DNA of 32,003 nucleotides from Komagataeibacter melaceti. GTDB taxonomy: Bacteria > Pseudomonadota > Alphaproteobacteria > Acetobacterales > Acetobacteraceae. Location: assembly GCF_003403295.1 (NCBI RefSeq), contig NZ_QUWV01000166.1:1-32003 (forward strand), written 5' to 3'. The translations under genes and the position numbers were made by a program. The number at the start of each line of letters is the position of its first letter. The stretch's first letter is position 1. The notes below the pieces were generated by a model that saw only the letters and a program-made list of their open reading frames with translations, was not told the origin of the DNA and ran no database searches. Below, piece after piece: positions 10,765-29,055 of the stretch.

Positions 10765-12123
10765 TCAGGGCGTGGACTGGCGGCGCATGCGCCACATGAT
10801 GCGCGTGCCATGCAGCACGAACACCGCCACCAACCCGGTCCCGATGCCGTACCACAGCCCTGTTGGCCCCATGCCGCGATGGAACGCCAGGTACACCCCG
10901 GTGGGAAACCCCACGCCCCAATAACCCAGAATGGCCAGTACCATCGGGATGGCGGTATCCCCCTGCCCGCGCAGGATGCCGGTGGCCACGACCTGTACCG
11001 CATCCGCACTCTGGAACGCGGCCCCCACCAGCAGCAGGCTCAGCGCCATGCGTATGGCGGCGGCGTTATCGGGCAGCGCCATGTCCAGATAGAAACTGAT
11101 GATGTGGTAACGCCCCAGCGCCAGCACCGCCGTGGTGACGCAGGCCAGCACGACGCCCAGAATCATGCCCGCCCATGCGGTGCGGCGGACCATGGCGGGA
11201 TCGCCACGCCCCGTCCAGTAACCGATGCGGATGTTGCATGCCTGCCCCAGCGCCAGATACAGCACGAAGCACTGCATGCCGATGCCCAGCATGATCTGGA
11301 ACGCCGCCAGCGCACTGTTGCCAAGGCGCGCGGCCTCAAGGCTGTTGGCCTGGAACAGTGTCACCTCCGCCATTGCGGCGGCCAGCATGGGCAGGCCGGT
11401 GCGCAGCAACTGCAGCGTATGCCCCCAGTCATGGGCGCGCGGGCGTAGCGCGGTGCGCAGTTCGGGCCTGCGGGCCATGAACCCGAGCATGATGGCCGGT
11501 ATGCACCATAGCGTGATGACCGTAGCGATGGCCGAGCCATGCAGCCCCAGCGTGGGCAGCCCGAACCACCCATGGATGAGGGTCGCGTTGAACACGCCAT
11601 TGACCACCGCGATGACCGGCATGACGCGCATGAGTATGCCCTGCGCCCCCATGACCGGCAGCGCCGTGGTCAGGATGCCCTGCCCCAGCAGCGCGGGCGG
11701 CACGGCCCACATCAGAATGCGGATGAAATCGGTCACTGGTGCGCGGATCGCCTCGGGTTCGTCCATCCACACCAGCAGCGTGTCCACATGCGCAAGGCAG
11801 TACAGTTCCGGCACGCATAACAGCAGCGCCACCACCAGCATGGACGTGATGATCGTGCCAAGGCTGGCATGGTCCTGCCGCCCGCGCGCCTGTGCCAGCA
11901 ATATGCCGCCTGCCTCGATCACGGCGGCAAGGATGGCCGTAAGCGTGAAGAACGTGCCGGTGGCCAGCCCGCCAATGGCCAGCGCCGTCGCACCCAGGCT
12001 GCCCAGCAGCACATCATCGGTCAGGCCCATCAGCATCTGGGCAAACTGTGACAGGCCCATTGGCCCAGCAATGGCAAGAAGCGAACGGAATTCGGCCCGG
12101 AACGGCTTGGTCTGAGGTGTCAT
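10765..12123 (-). CDS. MATE-family multidrug/metabolite exporter
   Basis: A predicted inner-membrane cation-coupled exporter of 452 residues with about twelve hydrophobic helices. The N-terminal half contains LLAIAGPMGLSQFAQMLMGLTDDVLLGSLG, the region that carries the substrate and ion contacts in the MATE family. The mid-protein loop LGLHGSAIAT and the helix-7 onset also match. Substrate is not predictable. The ATG at 12123 (MTPQTKPFRAEF) has an AGGG ribosome site; the frame runs on to 12171 but that extension is not family-like. It is divergent from hsdS across about 170 bases. Confidence 0.92.
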   Translation of the reverse strand: MTPQTKPFRAEFRSLLAIAGPMGLSQFAQMLMGLTDDVLLGSLGATALAIGGLATGTFFTLTAILAAVIEAGGILLAQARGRQDHASLGTIITSMLVVALLLCVPELYCLAHVDTLLVWMDEPEAIRAPVTDFIRILMWAVPPALLGQGILTTALPVMGAQGILMRVMPVIAVVNGVFNATLIHGWFGLPTLGLHGSAIATVITLWCIPAIMLGFMARRPELRTALRPRAHDWGHTLQLLRTGLPMLAAAMAEVTLFQANSLEAARLGNSALAAFQIMLGIGMQCFVLYLALGQACNIRIGYWTGRGDPAMVRRTAWAGMILGVVLACVTTAVLALGRYHIISFYLDMALPDNAAAIRMALSLLLVGAAFQSADAVQVVATGILRGQGDTAIPMVLAILGYWGVGFPTGVYLAFHRGMGPTGLWYGIGTGLVAVFVLHGTRIMWRMRRQSTP

Positions 12124-12294
12124 GAAACCCTGTTGCTGCCCATGACCCGACATGGAGCCATGACAATGCACCCGTGGCGGTATGGCGCGGATGCGTTGCG
12201 TGCAGGGGTTTATACTACTTCATCGCGCCCGGCCAGTCGGGGTTGCGCCAGTTCATGCCTCGACCACGGGGTTGCGCGTGCGTAAAAGGGCGGG

Positions 12295-13449
12295 ATGACA
12301 GCGTGCTGGCCCACTGCCCCGCTTGGCGCACTTGTGGCGTGTCTCGACGCCCGCCGCGTGCCGCTCAACCGCGCCCGGCGCGCACGGCGGCCGGGGCCGG
12401 TGCCCTATTACGGGGCCAGCGGTATTATCGGCCATGTGGATGAAGCCCTGTTCGACGGGCCGCTTGTCCTGCTGGGTGAGGACAGCGCGCCCTTTCTCGA
12501 CCCGATGCGTGATGTCGCGTTTTTTCATGATGGCCCCCTGTGGGCGGGCAATCATGTGCATGTGCTGCGGCCACGCCCGCATGTGGATGGGCGTTTTCTT
12601 GTCCACGCGCTCAATACGCTGGACTACGCGCCGTATGTGGAGGGTACGACCCGCCCCAAGCTGGTCCGCGCACGCATGAACGACCTGCCCGTGCCCTGCC
12701 CTCCCCTGGACCAGCAGCGAAAGATTGCCGATGCTCTGGATCAGGCGCTGCGCCGGATTGGCCGGCAGCTTGGTGAACTGGCCCATCAGGCCGGACTGGC
12801 GCGGGAGCGCGAGGAAGCGGAGATCCTGCATGCCCTTTCCGCAGCACGGGCGGATGGTGGCATCCGGCCCCTTGGTGCGACGTTCAGCATTACGGGCGGG
12901 GGCACGCCATCCACATCCCGCCCTGAATACTGGGGCCGCGATGTGGCGTGGATCACGCCTGCCGATCTGCCCGCAGGGCCGCCTGCGTGGGTAAGCCATG
13001 GCGCGCGTGGCCTGTCATTCATGGGGCTTGCAGCCTGCCGGGCCACGTTGGTTACCGCTTGTGCGCTGGTCATTTCAACCCGCGCGCCGGTGGGGCGTGT
13101 GGGCATGGGGGCCGGGCCACTGGCCGTAAGTCAGGGGTGCAAGGTGCTGGTGCCACGCGGGCAGGATGTGGACCTGTGCTATGCTGCGCTCGCACTCCAT
13201 GCGGCGGGGCCGGAACTGCGCCGCCGCGCGGGGGGCAGCGTGTTTCCCGAGGTTGATACCGCAACCCTTTCATCGCTGGAGATATGCCTGCCGCCACTGC
13301 ACACCCAGCGTGCGGTGGCGCGGGGCATAACGGAACTGCTGGCGGGCTTGCGGGAACAGGACTGCGCGCGTGACCGGTTGGCATCGGTGCTGCGGGAATA
13401 TCGTGTCGCGATCCGCCGTGCCGCCATGGACGGGCACCTGCCTGCGTAA
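12295..13449 (+). CDS. hsdS: Type I DNA methylation specificity subunit
   Basis: HsdS gives target recognition to type I methyltransferases. The 384-residue protein has the full two-half layout. TRD1 (about residues 1-130) contains VPYYGASGIIGHV and LLGEDSAPF. A conserved helical spacer follows (PPLDQQRKIADALDQ, about 137-165). TRD2 (about 195-330) contains GGGTPSTSRPEYWG and WITPADLP, and the second conserved region (LPPLHTQRAVARGI) ends the protein. Two different TRDs imply a bipartite target. The start ATG at 12295 follows an AAGGGCGGG ribosome site. Its partner hsdM lies 1.1 kb downstream, separated by a permease gene, and no hsdR is visible. Confidence 0.92.
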   Translation: MTACWPTAPLGALVACLDARRVPLNRARRARRPGPVPYYGASGIIGHVDEALFDGPLVLLGEDSAPFLDPMRDVAFFHDGPLWAGNHVHVLRPRPHVDGRFLVHALNTLDYAPYVEGTTRPKLVRARMNDLPVPCPPLDQQRKIADALDQALRRIGRQLGELAHQAGLAREREEAEILHALSAARADGGIRPLGATFSITGGGTPSTSRPEYWGRDVAWITPADLPAGPPAWVSHGARGLSFMGLAACRATLVTACALVISTRAPVGRVGMGAGPLAVSQGCKVLVPRGQDVDLCYAALALHAAGPELRRRAGGSVFPEVDTATLSSLEICLPPLHTQRAVARGITELLAGLREQDCARDRLASVLREYRVAIRRAAMDGHLPA

Positions 13450-13548
13450 ACGGGCGCGGATACTTTCTACACCATCTCTTTACGCTCTGCTGTCATAACG
13501 GTTTGTTAAGTGACGTGCAGTGCACCAGAAAAGGAACAGGACAGCCAT

Positions 13549-14601
13549 ATGGATGAAAACCGGAGCCGGACCCAGTACATCGGGACATTTATATTCGTAT
13601 GCGCGGTTCTGCTGTTTTCCGCATGGATTGAACAGTCATTCCTGTTTGCGTTTGTGTGGGGCGGGATACTGAGCATCACGACCTATCCGCTCCATCGCCG
13701 GCTGACCGGGCGTGGCATGGGCACGCGGATGGCGGCCGGGCTGATTGCATCGGGCATATTCGCGCTGCTGGCCGTGCCCATGATCGCCATGGCGGTCCGG
13801 GCCGGGATGGAAGTGCCCTCGCTCATGGCATGGGGGCGTGACGCGCTGCATGAAGGGATTCCCGTCTCGCCGCAGGTTGAGGAAATTCCCCGCTTCGGTT
13901 CGCGCCTTTCGGCATTGTGGCAACGCTACCTGTCGGACCCTGATGAACTGCGGCACTGGACCGGCGTGGCCTCGCGCATGTTCGCCACCAGCGATGGGCG
14001 GGCACTGCCGCACCGGGTTATGGAAATGACGGAAACCTTCGTCATCGCCACGCTGTCCGTCTATTTCTTTCTGGCCGCGTCACAGGCGCTGGCTTCGGAC
14101 ATCCGCGCCGTGGGCCGCCGCTTTCTGGGCGACCGGGCGGGTGATGTCATCTACAACACCGTGGGCGCGGTGCGCGGCACGGTTGCGGGTCTGGTGCTGG
14201 TGGGGCTGGGCCAGGGCGTGCTGGTGGGGGCTGGCTATTTCATTGCCGGAACGCCCCACCCTGCCCTGCTGACACTGCTGACGGCGGTGGTCAGTGTCAT
14301 TCCCTTCTGCGGGCCGGTCCTGCTCTGCGCCACCGTACTCATGACATTTGCGACGAATGGCATGATGCAGGCCATTATCGTGGGGGTGATCGGCACCATT
14401 GCCTATGGCGTGGGGGATCATTTTGTCCGGCCCAAGCTTATTAGCGGCAGCACCAGCATCCCGTTTCTGGCGGTGCTGACGGCCATTCTGGGGGGGCTGC
14501 ATGTATTTGGCCTGCTGGGGCTGTTCATCGGCCCGGCGGTCATTGCGGTCGCCCTGTCGCTATGGCGCACGGCGGCGGAGGAAGAGCGTGCCACGCGCTA
14601 G
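13549..14601 (+). CDS. AI-2E family (PerM-like) permease
   Basis: A predicted polytopic membrane protein of 350 residues. It has N-terminal helices (about residues 9-30 and 50-75), a soluble middle part (about 80-165), then a dense C-terminal bundle with SVIPFCGPVLL, HFVRPKLISG and GLLGLFIGPAVIAV. These are hallmarks of the AI-2E/PerM family, whose members export small molecules or ions. The substrate here is unknown. The ATG at 13549 has an AGGA ribosome site. Its last 14 bases overlap the hsdM start, so it is translationally linked to hsdM. Its position between hsdS and hsdM is unusual. Confidence 0.88.
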   Translation: MDENRSRTQYIGTFIFVCAVLLFSAWIEQSFLFAFVWGGILSITTYPLHRRLTGRGMGTRMAAGLIASGIFALLAVPMIAMAVRAGMEVPSLMAWGRDALHEGIPVSPQVEEIPRFGSRLSALWQRYLSDPDELRHWTGVASRMFATSDGRALPHRVMEMTETFVIATLSVYFFLAASQALASDIRAVGRRFLGDRAGDVIYNTVGAVRGTVAGLVLVGLGQGVLVGAGYFIAGTPHPALLTLLTAVVSVIPFCGPVLLCATVLMTFATNGMMQAIIVGVIGTIAYGVGDHFVRPKLISGSTSIPFLAVLTAILGGLHVFGLLGLFIGPAVIAVALSLWRTAAEEERATR

Positions 14602-16321
14602 CGTGGAAACACCGGGTTCCCTGCTGTCCTCCGCCGGTATCTGGCGTATTGCCGACCTGCTGCGCGGCAGGGTGCAGCCTGCGGAATACGGGCCGGTCAT
14701 CCTGGCCTTTACCGTGCTGCGCCGGATGGAACAGGCACGCGTGCGCCCGGTGATGACGCTGGCGGCGGTCAGTCAGGCCCCGGACAGGCTGGTGGCCCTT
14801 GAAACCCTTCTGTCCCGCCTGCCCTCCGCCGTGCGGGACATCATGGCGCAGCTTGAACTGCTACCCATGGCCCACCGTCTGGCACGCGCGGGTGTGCTGG
14901 AGGGCGTGGTGGCCCACTTCGCGGGGCTGGACCTTTCTCCCCGGCGTCATGGCAGTGAGGCCATGGCGCGACTGTTCGAGGAACTGGTCCATCATTTTAC
15001 CCAAAGCCGGGGAACCGGCGCGCATTATACCCCGCCGGAGGTCACGGACCTCATGGCCGACCTTGTTTTCGCACCCGATACGGCAGGCACGCGCCACGAC
15101 CTGTATGACCCTGCCGCCGGTACCGGCGCATTACTGGGGCGGGCGGCGGACCGGGTTGGCGCGTGTGGCGTGGATGTGCGCCTGTTCGGTCAGGAACTGA
15201 GCGTGCAGTCCTGCGCCCTGTGCCGCGCCGACCTGCTGCTGCGCGGCCAGAAGCCGCATGACATCGTGCATGGTGATACCCTGCTGGCTGATGGACATGC
15301 GGGGCGGCGCTTTGCCCGCATGCTGGCCAACCCTCCGTTCGGGCTGGACTGGCGGCATATCCGCGATGCGATACGGGCGGAACATGGGCGTGGCGCTGCC
15401 GGGCGGTTTGCCCCCGGCCTGCCCCGGGTGTCGGACGGGTCCATGCTGTTCATGCTGCATCTGCTGGCCAAAATGCGCGCCCCCCGGCATGGGGGCGCGC
15501 GTGTGGGGCTTGTAACCCATGCGGCGGCCCTGTGCGGTGGCGGGGCGGAAACGGGAGAGTCCGCCATCCGGCGCTATCTGGTGGATCATGACCTGATTGA
15601 TACGGTCATTGCCCTGCCCACGGACATGTTCATCAATACCGGGATCGCCACCTATATATGGATACTCGATAACAACAGGCCCGCCGCGCGCAGGGGAAAG
15701 GTCCATCTGGTGGACGCATCCCCCCTGTGGCGGCGGACACCGCGCAGCAGCGGTGAAAAGCGCCGTGAAATGACCCCCGCGCACCTTGTCACCATCGTAA
15801 GGGCCTGCATGGCGGCGGATGAGATGGATATTGCCCTGCAGGAGGATGCAGATGGTGCGGCCATGGCATGGTCCCTGCTGCCGCGCGACATGCCGGAAGG
15901 GCAATGGCCCCGCGAGGGGGAGATGGAAGCGCAATCCCCTCCTCACTCTGGCACGGCAGTACGGGATGCTACCGCCAGTGCGGATGGGTGGACTCGCCGG
16001 GCCGGTTTTTCACGCATCGTGGCGGGGCGGGATTTTCTCTACCGCAGTCTGGTAGTCGAACATCCGGCAGGCGAAGGCCCTCCGGCCCGCACGGTTTTTA
16101 CAATAGGCATGAATCAGGACCCGCAGGCTTGGTTCGCCAGCATGGTCCAGCCCCATGACCCCACGGCACGGCTGGACATGACGCGCGCGGCCGTGGGTTG
16201 CGCCATTTCATTTCCACGCTATTTCCACCGGCCCGCGCAGGTGCGTCCGCTGAACGATATCGTGGCGGACATGCGCCGCTCCATGGCGCGGCTTGCCGCA
16301 CTCATGCCCGGGGAGGAGTGA
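14588..16321 (+). CDS. hsdM: Type I DNA methyltransferase (N6-adenine) subunit
   Basis: HsdM transfers methyl from SAM to adenine and works with HsdS. The product is 577 residues. An N-terminal helical domain (LADLLRGRVQPAEYGPVILAF-like, about residues 10-40) precedes the SAM/catalytic domain. That domain has YTPPEVTDLM, motif I DPAAGTG (about 174-180) and motif IV ANPPFGLDW (about 250-258). The C-terminal part ends in an SRIVAGRDFLYRSLVVEHP segment, typical for HsdM. I chose the GTG at 14588 because a GGAGG ribosome site precedes it by 6 bases and homology begins just after. All catalytic motifs look intact. It is convergent with mtnK, with 2 bases between the stops. Confidence 0.92.
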   Translation: MPRASVETPGSLLSSAGIWRIADLLRGRVQPAEYGPVILAFTVLRRMEQARVRPVMTLAAVSQAPDRLVALETLLSRLPSAVRDIMAQLELLPMAHRLARAGVLEGVVAHFAGLDLSPRRHGSEAMARLFEELVHHFTQSRGTGAHYTPPEVTDLMADLVFAPDTAGTRHDLYDPAAGTGALLGRAADRVGACGVDVRLFGQELSVQSCALCRADLLLRGQKPHDIVHGDTLLADGHAGRRFARMLANPPFGLDWRHIRDAIRAEHGRGAAGRFAPGLPRVSDGSMLFMLHLLAKMRAPRHGGARVGLVTHAAALCGGGAETGESAIRRYLVDHDLIDTVIALPTDMFINTGIATYIWILDNNRPAARRGKVHLVDASPLWRRTPRSSGEKRREMTPAHLVTIVRACMAADEMDIALQEDADGAAMAWSLLPRDMPEGQWPREGEMEAQSPPHSGTAVRDATASADGWTRRAGFSRIVAGRDFLYRSLVVEHPAGEGPPARTVFTIGMNQDPQAWFASMVQPHDPTARLDMTRAAVGCAISFPRYFHRPAQVRPLNDIVADMRRSMARLAALMPGEE

Positions 16322-16323
16322 TC

Positions 16324-17556
16324 TTACAGCCCCACTTTTTCTTGCTCGCCCAGATGGCGCAGGAAGTCGCCCAGCGTGCGGATCTGTGCCGTGTGGTCGA
16401 GTATGTAATAGGCAAAGGCCAGCGCCCCCGCGCGGCAGGCCCCGCGCTGGCGTGGGTCGGCAATGACATCGAAATCCGCCGTGTGGGCATAGCCGATGAT
16501 GCGGCGGATGACCTCGGCCGCCGCGAAGCCCATGGTATCAGCCTCGATTTCCTCAAGGAAGGCAAGCTGCGCCGTATGCGCGGCGGGGCCATAGGCCAGT
16601 GGGCGCAATGTGCCAGCGGGTGGGGCCTCATCACGGTTCCATAGCGTCAGGAACTGCGCGTGAAAGCAGGTCCAGAACGCGGCGATGTCACGTATGGTGG
16701 CCGACCGTGCCGTGGCATCGGGCGTTGCGAAATAATGCAGCACCAGATTGCCGACAAACATGCCGCAATCAAACCCGATGGGGCCGTACAGGGCGAATTC
16801 GCCATCTATCACGCGGGTATCATCGGCCTTGGTCATGATCGAGCCGGTATGCAGGTCCCCATGCAGCAGCGCCTGCGGCTGTGACAGGAAGCGTCGGCGC
16901 AGGTTCTCGACCGCAAGCAGCGTGGGCGCGCTGGAGCGGATGTCCAGCACCAGTGGCGTCAGTTCCGGTTCATCCCAGTTATTGCGCGGGTGATCGCGGT
17001 ACGGATGATCGAAGACGAGATCGAGCGTGATGCGTGTCAGCGTGACATTGCGTGCGAAATCGCGTCGGGCGGCGAAAACATCCTCGAACGGCAGGGCAAG
17101 CAGCGATGTGCCGAAGGTCGCGTGGGCGATGAAGGTGCCGATGCGCGGCGCGACATCGGGCCAGTCCACCCCGCGCATGAGGGCACTGCGGTACACCGTA
17201 TGGCCGGACAGGCTTTCCACGATCAGGACATGCAGTACGGGGTCGAAATGCAGAAATTCCGTGGTCAGCCCGCCCACCAGCGGCCGGACCGCGCGCAGCC
17301 ATTCACTCTCGAAATACGTGCGGTCCAGTGGCATCTTCCATGTCGGGTCCACACGGACATAGGGCAGCGACTGCTTGAGGCAGACCTCGCCCGTCGGGCC
17401 GCCCACGATGAAGACATTGTTCAGGTTGCCATCGCTGACCTCATGCACCCGCCACAGGTCAGGTGTGCCGCCAAGGCGCCCGGCCACCACCGGCACGCCC
17501 GAGATCAGGCTGCGGATGCCTGCCGCGTCCAGCGTGTGATAGGTGCTTTCGGTCAT
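16324..17556 (-). CDS. mtnK: S-methyl-5-thioribose kinase
   Basis: MtnK phosphorylates methylthioribose in methionine salvage from polyamine and SAM by-products. The protein is 410 residues, in the family range. It has the choline-kinase-like fold signatures: DGNLNNVFIV near residue 40, VCLKQSLPYVR (ATP-side lysine), the catalytic HGDLHTGSIM near residue 230, and VIDGEFALYGPIGFD (metal-binding Asp/Glu). The ATG at 17556 follows a GGAAAA site; an ATG at 17574 is an alternative. The rest of the salvage pathway (mtnA and others) is not in the window. It is divergent from bfr. Confidence 0.93.
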   Translation of the reverse strand: MTESTYHTLDAAGIRSLISGVPVVAGRLGGTPDLWRVHEVSDGNLNNVFIVGGPTGEVCLKQSLPYVRVDPTWKMPLDRTYFESEWLRAVRPLVGGLTTEFLHFDPVLHVLIVESLSGHTVYRSALMRGVDWPDVAPRIGTFIAHATFGTSLLALPFEDVFAARRDFARNVTLTRITLDLVFDHPYRDHPRNNWDEPELTPLVLDIRSSAPTLLAVENLRRRFLSQPQALLHGDLHTGSIMTKADDTRVIDGEFALYGPIGFDCGMFVGNLVLHYFATPDATARSATIRDIAAFWTCFHAQFLTLWNRDEAPPAGTLRPLAYGPAAHTAQLAFLEEIEADTMGFAAAEVIRRIIGYAHTADFDVIADPRQRGACRAGALAFAYYILDHTAQIRTLGDFLRHLGEQEKVGL

Positions 17557-17714
17557 GTCGTTTTTTCCAGCCATGCGCCGTGGTGGCCGCCCGTGGCGCA
17601 ACCGGGGTACGGTTGCGCAGGAACGGTGGATATGCGACGCTTCCGTATATTTGTCCCGCGGAGGATTATACACGAATCCGGAGTGGCAAAAAGGCAGGTT
17701 TAGGAACGACAGTC

Positions 17715-25835: not shown

Positions 25836-26123
25836 ATGTCGCTTGATCCCGCGACCGTCCGCCGCATTGCCAGACTGGCACGGATTGGTATTGACGAGTC
25901 TGATCTTCAGTCCCTGCAAGGGGAGCTTAACGGGATCCTGGGCTGGGTCGAGCAGCTGAACGAGGTCAATGTCGATGGGGTCGCCCCCATGGTCGGCACC
26001 GGCCACGCCGCACTGCGCATACGTGACGATGTGGTGACGGATGGCGACTGCCGCGAGGCCGTCCTGTCCAACGCGCCCGATGTCGTTGGCCCCTTCTATA
26101 CCGTGCCCAAGGTTGTTGAATAA
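25836..26123 (+). CDS. gatC: Asp-tRNA(Asn)/Glu-tRNA(Gln) amidotransferase subunit C
   Basis: GatC is the small stabilising subunit of the GatCAB complex, which amidates misacylated tRNAs to make Gln-tRNA or Asn-tRNA. The 95-residue product has the family pattern: [48 protein letters not shown], and [17 protein letters not shown] at the end. The ATG at 25836 is chosen from this; an ATG six codons earlier is also open. Its stop overlaps the gatA start by one base. Confidence 0.96.
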
Positions 26124-27610
26124 TGAACCTGACCGAACTTACGATAGCCGACGCCGCCGCCGGCCTGCGCAGGCGCGAATACAGCGCGGTCGAGCTGGTG
26201 CGCGCGCATACGGACGCGATTGCCGCCCTCAACCCGCGCCTGAACGCCTACATCACCACCACGGCCGATGCGGCGCTGGAAGCGGCGGGCCGTGCGGATG
26301 CCGCTCTTGCCCGTGATGAGGCCCGCGCGCTGACCGGCATCCCGCTGGGTATCAAGGACCTGTTCTGCACCAATGGCGTGCGGACCACGGCGGCCAGCAA
26401 TATCCTCAAAAACTTTGTCCCGCCTTATGAAAGCACGGTCACGGCCAACCTGCTGCGCGATGGCGCGGTGTTCGTGGGCAAGACCAACCTTGATGAATTC
26501 GCCATGGGGTCGGCCAACATCACGTCCGCCTTCGGGCCGGTTGAAAACCCGTGGAAGCGCAAGGGCGACGAACAGACCGTCCTGGTGCCCGGCGGTTCCT
26601 CGGGCGGGTCGGCTGCGGCGGTCTCCGCCGGGCTGGCCATGGGGGCGACGGGTACGGATACTGGCGGCTCGATCCGCCAGCCTGCGGCCTATTGCGGTAT
26701 TGTCGGCCTCAAGCCCACCTATGGTCGGTGCAGCCGTTATGGCACAATCGCCTATGCCTCCTCGCTGGATCAGGCGGGACCGATGGCGCGCACCGTGGGT
26801 GACTGCGCCATCATGCTCCAATCCATGGCAGGGTTCGACCCGCGTGACAGCACCAGCGTGGATCGTGACGTGCCGGATTACTCCGCCGCTGTGGGTCGCA
26901 GCCTCAAGGGGCTGAAGGTCGGTATCCCGCGTGAATACCGTGCCGAGGGCCTCTCGACCGAGATCGAGGCGGCGTGGCAGCAGGGCATCGCATGGCTGAA
27001 GGAAGCTGGGTGCGAGATCGTGGATGTCTCCCTGCCCCATACCCGTTATGGTCTGGCCACCTACTATATCGTGGCGCCGGCGGAATGTTCGTCTAACCTC
27101 GCGCGCTATGACGGCCTGCGCTTTGGCGAGCGTGTTCCCGCCCCCACGCTGGACGGAATGTACGAAGCCTCCCGCCGCGCGGGTTTTGGTGCGGAGGTGC
27201 GTCGCCGCATCATGATGGGCACCTATGTGCTTTCCGCCGGGTATTACGATGCCTATTACCTGAAGGCGCAGAAGGTCCGCACGCTGATCCGCCGCGATTT
27301 TACCGAGAGCTTCCAGCAGGTTGACGTATTGCTGACGCCCACCGCGCCAACACCGGCGTTCGGGCAAGGGGAAAAGATGGACGATCCGGTCCAGATGTAT
27401 CTGAACGACATTTTCACGGTGCCTGCCTCCATGGCGGGTATGCCCGCCATGTCCGTGCCCGTGGGGCTGGGCGACACCGGCCTGCCGCTGGGGCTGCAGT
27501 TGATCGGCCGCCCGTTTGATGAGGAAACCCTGCTGGCGGCTGGTAGCGCGCTGGAAAAGGCGGCGGCCTTCACCCACCGGCCTGCCATCCGTGCGGAGGT
27601 GGCGAAATGA
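26123..27610 (+). CDS. gatA: Asp-tRNA(Asn)/Glu-tRNA(Gln) amidotransferase subunit A
   Basis: GatA is the glutaminase subunit that releases ammonia for the transamidation. The 495-residue product has the amidase-signature triad in place: Lys78 in PLGIKDLF, the cis-Ser in GGSSGGSAA (about 157-165), and the nucleophile Ser183 in [15 protein letters not shown]. Its start overlaps gatC by one base and its stop overlaps the gatB start by four (ATGA), so all three subunits are translationally coupled. Confidence 0.97.
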
Positions 27611-29055
27611 GCTATACGATCGAAGGCCGCACCGGCACGTGGGAAATCGTGGTCGGGCTGGAGGTCCATGCGCAGGTCATAAGCCACTCCAAGCTGTTCT
27701 CGGGCGCATCCGCATCCTATGGCGGTGAGCCGAACACCCATGTCAGCCTGGTGGATGCGGGTTTTCCGGGCATGCTGCCGGTCCTGAACCGCGAATGTGT
27801 GGCGCAGGCCATCCGTACCGGGCTGGGTCTGCGCGCGCGCATCAATCTGGAAAGCCGGTTTGACCGCAAGAACTATTTCTATGCGGACCTGCCCACGGGC
27901 TACCAGATCAGCCAGTTCACCCACCCCATTGTGGGTGAAGGCACGGTCGAGATCGAACTGTCCGATGGCACGGTACGTCATATCGGCATTACCCGCCTGC
28001 ATCTGGAACAGGATGCGGGCAAGTCGATCCATGACCAGGACCCGACGCGCTCACTGATCGACCTGAACCGCGCCGGTGTGGCGCTGATGGAAATCGTCAG
28101 CGAACCCGACATCCGCACACCGGAGGAAGCCGGTGCGTACCTGCGCAAGTTGCGCCAGATCCTGCGTTATCTGGGCACCTGCGATGGTAACATGGAAGAA
28201 GGCTCGATGCGTGCCGACGTGAACGTGTCGGTGCGCAAGGCGGGTGAAGCCTTCCGCACGCGCTGCGAGATCAAGAACGTCAACTCCATCCGCTACGTCA
28301 TGCACGCGATCGAGACCGAGGCCGCCCGCCAGGTCGAGGTATGGGAAGATGGCGGCACGGTGGATCAGGAAACGCGCCTGTTCGACCCCGCCCGCAATGA
28401 AACCCGCTCGCTGCGCAGCAAGGAAGACGCGCACGATTACCGCTACTTCCCCGATCCCGACCTGCTGCCGCTGGTGGTAGAGCAGGACTGGGTGGACGAG
28501 CTGGAAAAGGCCCTGCCCGAACTGCCCGATGACAAGCGCGCGCGCTTCCAGAAGGAGTACGGCATCCCCCGCTATGACGCGGGCGTGCTGGTGGCCGAGC
28601 AGGCGATTGCCGATTACTACGAGACGGTGGCGCGGGGCCGCGATGCCCGCCTTGCCGCCAACTGGGTTACGGGTGACCTGTTCGCGGCGCTGAACCGCAC
28701 GGGGCGCACGATTCAGGACAGTCCCATCTCGGCACAGGCGCTGGGTGGCATGCTGGATCTGGTGTCCGATGGCACGATCAATGGCAAGATCGCCAAGGAA
28801 GTGTTCGAGGACATGCTGGAAACAGGTGACAGTGCTGCCGATATCGTGGAGCGCAAGGGCCTGAAGCAGGTAACCGACACCGGCGCGATTGATGCCGCCG
28901 TGGCCGATGTGCTGGCCCGCAATGCGGACAAGGTGGAAGAATATCGCGGTGGCAAGGACCGGCTGTTTGGCTTCTTTGTCGGTCAGGTCATGAAGGCCAT
29001 GGCGGGCAAGGCCAATCCGGCCATTGTGAATGAAGCCCTGAAAAAAGTTTTGTAA
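27607..29055 (+). CDS. gatB: Asp-tRNA(Asn)/Glu-tRNA(Gln) amidotransferase subunit B
   Basis: GatB binds the misacylated tRNA, activates its carboxylate with ATP and completes amidation. The 482-residue protein has the start [13 protein letters not shown], the cradle-domain segments [19 protein letters not shown] and [14 protein letters not shown], and [12 protein letters not shown]. The [17 protein letters not shown] region follows, and a YqeY-like tail ends in [23 protein letters not shown]. It is the last gene of the gatCAB operon. A long inverted repeat follows before tRNA-Ser. Confidence 0.97.

Follow-up and report, generated by a model that had tools for sequence, protein, structure and literature searches.

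Probable orphan Type I methyltransferase with conserved target-recognition domains and an intervening permease gene in the genus Komagataeibacter

The window analysed here is contig C81, a 32,003-nucleotide stretch of the 3.49-Mb draft genome of Komagataeibacter melaceti, in which the genes for the specificity subunit (hsdS) and the methylation subunit (hsdM) of a Type I DNA methyltransferase lie on either side of a gene for a PF01594 (AI-2E/YdiK-like) permease. Taken whole, our analysis makes it probable that HsdS (S) and HsdM (M) form an orphan Type I methyltransferase whose constant target would serve as a genome mark, and that the permease is an independent neighbour. What is new here is the inverted conservation pattern of HsdS, the genus-wide persistence of the locus, and the presence of a permease in the split. 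The initial annotation had proposed an orphan epigenetic methyltransferase, a proposal which, at the level of sequence, finds support in the conservation of the locus, the open reading frames, the absence of a restriction subunit (HsdR, or R) and the conserved target-recognition domains (TRDs).

All three genes, hsdS (12295-13449), the permease gene (13549-14601) and hsdM (14588-16321), are on the + strand, as had been described for positions 12295-16321; start codons throughout are inferred ones. We compared 19 Komagataeibacter genomes, the window's own included, with one genome searched per species, bearing in mind that draft genomes may hide genes. The permease was present in all 19 (84-100% identity), and in 18 of them it was directly followed by HsdM and preceded by HsdS, the exception being the genome G222. 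A MATE exporter gene was found on the hsdS side in 19/19 genomes (in G306 the contig stops within it), and 18 have mtnK on the hsdM side (in G300 the contig ends first). Because the S-permease-M order is common to 18/19 genomes of the genus, the layout must be old and a chance arrangement is excluded. The reversed order with a membrane gene between S and M was thus recovered in 18/18 loci, and the possibility, raised at the outset, that homologous loci would usually lack the permease at this position does not describe what we found. The chance insertion suggested by the initial annotation is no recent accident; a recent permease insertion was likewise rejected on the basis of the genus-wide order.

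The conservation of the locus in 18/19 genomes is accompanied by purifying selection. The hsdS frame is open in 18/18 genomes and hsdM in 17/18, and the ratio of nonsynonymous to synonymous substitution rates (dN/dS; NG86 method) was 0.18-0.28 for HsdS and 0.15-0.26 for HsdM in 11 chosen pairs, with dS reaching up to 0.71. Open frames and dN/dS together led us to reject a pseudogene. HsdM, of 577 amino acids when read from the GTG at 14588, matches N6_Mtase (PF02384; 160 bits) and HsdM_N (27 bits), and its matches in the PDB are EcoR124 M and other HsdM. The catalytic motifs, present as DPAAGTG and NPPF in the window, had been judged intact from the window alone; DPA(A/V)GTG, NPPF and H(Y/F)TPPE are kept in all 18 HsdM, as would be expected of an active enzyme.

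In Type I systems, it is generally the specificity subunit that varies most. HsdS of this locus (384 amino acids) contains two PF01420 Methylase_S stretches (92 bits), as expected for two TRDs, and we set its domain limits, guided by Pfam and the alignment, at TRD1, residues ~1-135; spacer, 136-192; TRD2, 193-335; and C-terminal spacer, 336-384. Across the 18 HsdS sequences the mean identity was 0.80 in TRD columns versus 0.50 in spacer columns, a difference that 4 of 384 circular shifts of the domain mask reached (the true position counted). Mean pairwise identity was 85% in TRD1, 76% in TRD2 and 50-52% in the spacers, and regional dN over gene dS was 0.125, 0.204 and 0.43, respectively (35 pairs; such regional sums are limited to pairs with a dS of 0.1-0.7 and, for HsdM, exclude G300). 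A structure model of HsdS, for which the top Foldseek match was the HsdS structure 1yf2, contained long helices at 138-185 and 335-378, with TRD2 modelled. The conserved TRDs suggest that the HsdS target is fixed across the genus; sequence searches of the PDB returned distant HsdS and HsdM only, so no target can be predicted.

Judged from the sequences compared, this pattern is the opposite of that of the canonical Type I systems of the genus. For this comparison 12 stretches were fetched, of which nine canonical HsdS, in four genus families that we picked for a shared M or R, were used; L113 and L118 had no family partner, and L115 is the orphan locus of G308. Within these families HsdM was 92-96% identical and HsdR, in the two families compared, 95-97%, whereas HsdS was 31-64% identical, with TRD blocks mostly at 0.10-0.40 and central spacer blocks at up to 0.95. 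Judged by HsdM, the orphan pairs are the more distantly related, which makes the contrast all the stronger. Orphan HsdS aligned with the HsdS of L118 at 30% over residues 1-368 and with that of L116 at 36% over residues 9-136. Among the canonical loci themselves, L107, L108 and L109 combine M and R that are 93-97% identical with three different HsdS, that is, TRD replacement in canonical systems.

The absence of a restriction subunit from the locus, reported initially for the window, extends to the genus: four HsdR queries (one cut) gave 0 matches across the 19 loci at E<=1e-8. Elsewhere in the genome, some HSDR_N match was found in 18/19 genomes, with none in G308. The sole match in G135 is a 380-amino-acid protein with part of HSDR_N, and the sole match in G309 is a similar partial one in a 387-amino-acid frame. 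In these three genomes Methylase_S is matched by nothing but the two halves of this hsdS; hence 3/18 genomes have neither a full-size HSDR_N protein nor another HsdS, and the cognate HsdR elsewhere that had been considered as an alternative appears to be missing from them. By gene content, then, this methyltransferase seems to have no cognate nuclease. Two such 380-amino-acid proteins are also present in G222, a genome without S and M (L125, L126 and L127 are the G135 and G222 stretches), and matches like it are found in other genomes of the genus too. In G135 the protein has no HsdS match in its vicinity, and G222 is devoid of any HsdS match.

With no HsdR, and with M neither adjacent to nor before S, the locus departs from the definition of a Type I restriction-modification system. 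Eight distant HsdM relatives (L047-L052, L110 and L111), 36-38% identical over nearly their full length, share the same subunit types but differ in having HsdR and M before S, being M-S-R loci in 8/8 cases; they represent 6 of the 41 matching genomes outside the genus and 2 loci inside it, and one of those outside has an in-frame TAG in HsdM. Since the distant relatives sit in M-S-R loci, the loss of R and the separation of the genes look derived.

The permease belongs to PF01594 (94.2 bits; cut-off 34.3) but falls far below the cut-off of the NCBIfam YdiK model (114 bits against 305), and family membership does not of itself imply transport of autoinducer 2 (AI-2). Its dN/dS was 0.03-0.18 in the 11 chosen pairs and 0.13 when pooled over 146 pairs; for the neighbouring MATE gene, two pairs with G306 gave 1.4 and 0.39, values which are not meaningful as the cut gene retains 46 residues. 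Three observations separate the permease from S and M. G222 lost hsdS and hsdM by two separate deletions while its permease remained open: relative to G135, the deletions took about 1.07 kb out of hsdS and about 1.51 kb out of hsdM, and short ends remain. At the deletion junctions of this locus (L080; G222:C20, 7700-11400), overlaps of 19 and 5 bases are seen against G135. Conversely, the permease of K. xylinus K2G30 (L058/L045) carries a single nonsense codon, with hsdS and hsdM open. Finally, in the genus g73 of the same family, a permease orthologue 62-63% identical was found in 4/4 genomes, and the 17-18 kb around it held no homologue of HsdS, HsdM, MATE or mtnK in any of the four; a distant HsdM lies elsewhere in 3/4. 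The g73 permease (L103-L106) is located a few kb from open reading frames matching window positions 26123-29055, and the frame adjoining it presumably encodes a UDP-glucose dehydrogenase, a candidate name taken from the start of that frame.

Because G222, K2G30 and g73 separate them, we regard S plus M and the permease as two distinct functional units, and the methyltransferase enzyme probably does not include the permease. These same cases led us to reject the permease as an essential part, and the working part that the initial annotation had offered as its second option is not supported by genomes in which the permease and S plus M are broken independently.

The two sides of the permease gene differ in how tightly they are held. 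At its 3' side (14576-14601, + strand), a Shine-Dalgarno-like GGAGGA lies within the permease end, followed by the GTG at 14588 and the permease stop; the initially reported 14-base overlap with a ribosome site holds for this GTG, which is the likely start of hsdM, whereas the first in-frame ATG, at 14501, would give an overlap of 101 bases. Taking in each genome the hsdM start nearest the conserved beginning, the junction distance across the 17 genomes with an unbroken hsdM was -14 in two cases (the window and G060) and between +3 and +13 in the remaining 15. While the permease-hsdM contact is conserved, the hsdS-permease contact is not. The latter interval (99 bases here, 13450-13548, no strand) measures about 60-220 bases in 6/18 genomes and holds other genes or their remains in 11/18, namely a same-strand GNAT gene in 6 (an open frame in 5; L088 shows a DNA match only) and an antisense phosphoesterase-like gene in 5 (2 near full length and free of stops, 3 broken or partial); in the remaining genome it is 258 bases long with neither gene. 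The phosphoesterase-like gene matched Metallophos_2 at 24.6 bits, below the cut-off of 27. The content of the interval varies by clade, the acetyltransferase gene being found for instance at L085 8133-8627 and the antisense gene at L046 7675-8205. The most plausible reading of this link between hsdM and the permease is that it serves expression.

Based on the above, we propose that the enzyme would be an M2S1 trimer placing N6-methyladenine (m6A) on one bipartite sequence. Its ancestor would have been an M-S-R restriction system from which R was lost, M and S coming to flank the permease before the sampled Komagataeibacter species diverged, after which selection may have kept the target-reading domains constant. 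Conservation without a nuclease argues for a regulatory role, and the most likely function would be that of a genome-wide mark, for gene regulation or other housekeeping, rather than defence. The permease would be an independently useful neighbour whose gene provides hsdM with transcription and translational coupling, hsdS probably being expressed separately.

Several observations weigh against this proposal. The enzyme is dispensable, G222 having lost S and M, and hsdM carries a frameshift in K. europaeus LMG 18890 (G300), possibly through a sequencing error. TRD1 of the HsdS model is not confidently predicted (predicted local distance difference test, pLDDT, about 25-40), and one canonical pair, L110/L111, shares TRD2 (0.75-0.90), its TRD1 being different. 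Complete Type I systems occur in several genomes, so that use of a foreign HsdR is conceivable. The dN/dS of the G222 permease (0.07-0.11 pairwise) is no proof of later selection because it includes the time before the loss, and the K2G30 nonsense codon may be recent or an error since that permease shows no relaxation (0.07-0.12). Gene trees, built from 16/19 genomes (G222, G300 and G306 were omitted as having a gene missing, broken or cut), agree only partly, with 10/13 splits shared between S and the flanks, 9 between M and the flanks, and 8 between S and M; overall, 8-11 of 13 splits are common to the trees of S, M, permease and flanks, whose main clades are consistent, and some recombination is therefore possible. 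Moreover, Type I methylation can be silent: the excerpt of PMC8287963 describes three E. coli systems without an effect on gene expression.

As to the role of the permease, one could imagine a two-transcript switch, in which HsdS comes from a unit of its own and HsdM is translationally coupled to the permease, such that the conditions governing the permease set the M:S ratio and with it the degree to which a fixed target shared by the genus is methylated; we consider this unlikely. Even less to be expected is a permease that works with the enzyme, being produced together with HsdM owing to a functional link between their products or dosages, as when an envelope signal sets methylation. The position of the permease between S and M in 18/18 loci and the tight junction in the 17 genomes with an unbroken hsdM, which suggests coupled translation, would fit such a link, but the permease stays open in G222 after the loss of S and M, S and M stay open in K2G30 despite the nonsense codon (an assembly-level call), the g73 permease has neither gene nearby, and the contact with hsdS is not conserved.

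It appears very improbable to us that the locus supplies modification to a functioning restriction system whose HsdR is borrowed from elsewhere. The window genome does contain two other complete Type I systems, C210 (M-S-R) and C151 (R-M-S), and HSDR_N matches are widespread in the genus; nevertheless G308 has none, G135 and G309 have only partial short ones of a kind found in G222 as well, the sole HsdS matches in those three genomes are this locus, HsdM resembles the C210 HsdM at 37% over residues 110-382 only, and the conserved TRDs are unlike those of the defence systems of the genus. Least credible of all is a decaying Type I relic that has simply not been lost yet. One complete loss (G222), one frameshift (G300), the missing R and the poor conservation of the spacers and of HsdM 401-470 (dN over gene dS 0.43-0.50) could be taken as decay; set against these are the open frames of S and M, their low dN/dS even in the more divergent pairs, and HsdM motifs kept throughout. 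We thus retain the orphan methyltransferase beside an independent permease as the preferred reading.

For the permease, the start candidates were GTG 13510, given by the list of open reading frames, and ATG 13549, which we favour because a matching start is present in 3/4 orthologous frames of another genus and because an in-frame stop sits just upstream in G309. As context, the MATE exporter gene (10765-12171, - strand) is divergent from hsdS and mtnK, for methylthioribose kinase (16324-17673, - strand; TIGR01767, 348 bits, above the cut-off), is convergent with hsdM, profile matches having upheld both flanks as initially named. Between 12000 and 16500, a scan for sigma-70-type promoters found 0 (shuffled sequences, 0.6) and led nowhere; 7 terminator-like sites were counted (shuffles, 2.8), including a weak one at the hsdS end (13442-13459), and these were not used.

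Beyond the genus, an HsdM match (E<=1e-40) was found in 47 of 299 family genomes drawn, while identity above 50% was seen in only 6 of the 299, all Komagataeibacter (the draw held 7 genomes of the genus). Named relatives of the window HsdM comprised twelve Komagataeibacter records (61-68% identical), most of them probably the same as genomes of our sample, so that the two sets are not summed, and three Streptomyces records that matched weakly (26-32% over part). The flanks were sought in 8 other family genomes, four of g73 among them; in g73, mtnK was found in 3/4 (E<=1e-30) and MATE in 0/4 (E<=1e-60), and the state before formation of the locus was not found in these 8 genomes.

Conserved orphan methyltransferases that provide a lineage mark without a nuclease include CamA, and Dam, CcrM and CamA are all single proteins rather than M plus S complexes with a bipartite target. 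The excerpt of PMC8287963 presents Dam and CcrM as conserved orphan methyltransferases, and the present locus would resemble them in providing a mark that is conserved in its lineage and has no nuclease beside it. Of the described cases that we found, the nearest appears to be MamC/MamS of the M. tuberculosis complex (formerly HsdM Rv2756c and HsdS Rv2761c), an orphan Type I enzyme without functional HsdR according to the excerpted text of PMC7591249. There too an orphan M and S seem to be encoded apart, judging from the locus numbers; unlike here, that excerpt mentions no permease in the split, and it reports a further S fragment (Rv2755) and loss-of-function alleles among isolates (PMC7591249). 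This likeness is drawn from published descriptions. Among the matches listed in searches on Komagataeibacter methylation or restriction-modification, AI-2E with hsdM, and orphan Type I enzymes, titles and beginnings of abstracts gave no account of this locus.

Komagataeibacter are well-known cellulose producers, and the present findings make the testable claim that they share an m6A mark. Within HsdS, conservation across the genus is highest in the TRDs; this is what would be expected if the mark itself were useful, and suggests that it serves the cell's own use, not defence. Natural comparisons exist in G222, which lacks S and M, and in the possible permease mutant K2G30, and the mark may matter for the transformation of Komagataeibacter strains. 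More generally, the contrast between TRDs and spacers is a simple sequence test that could reveal other Type I enzymes turned to regulation.

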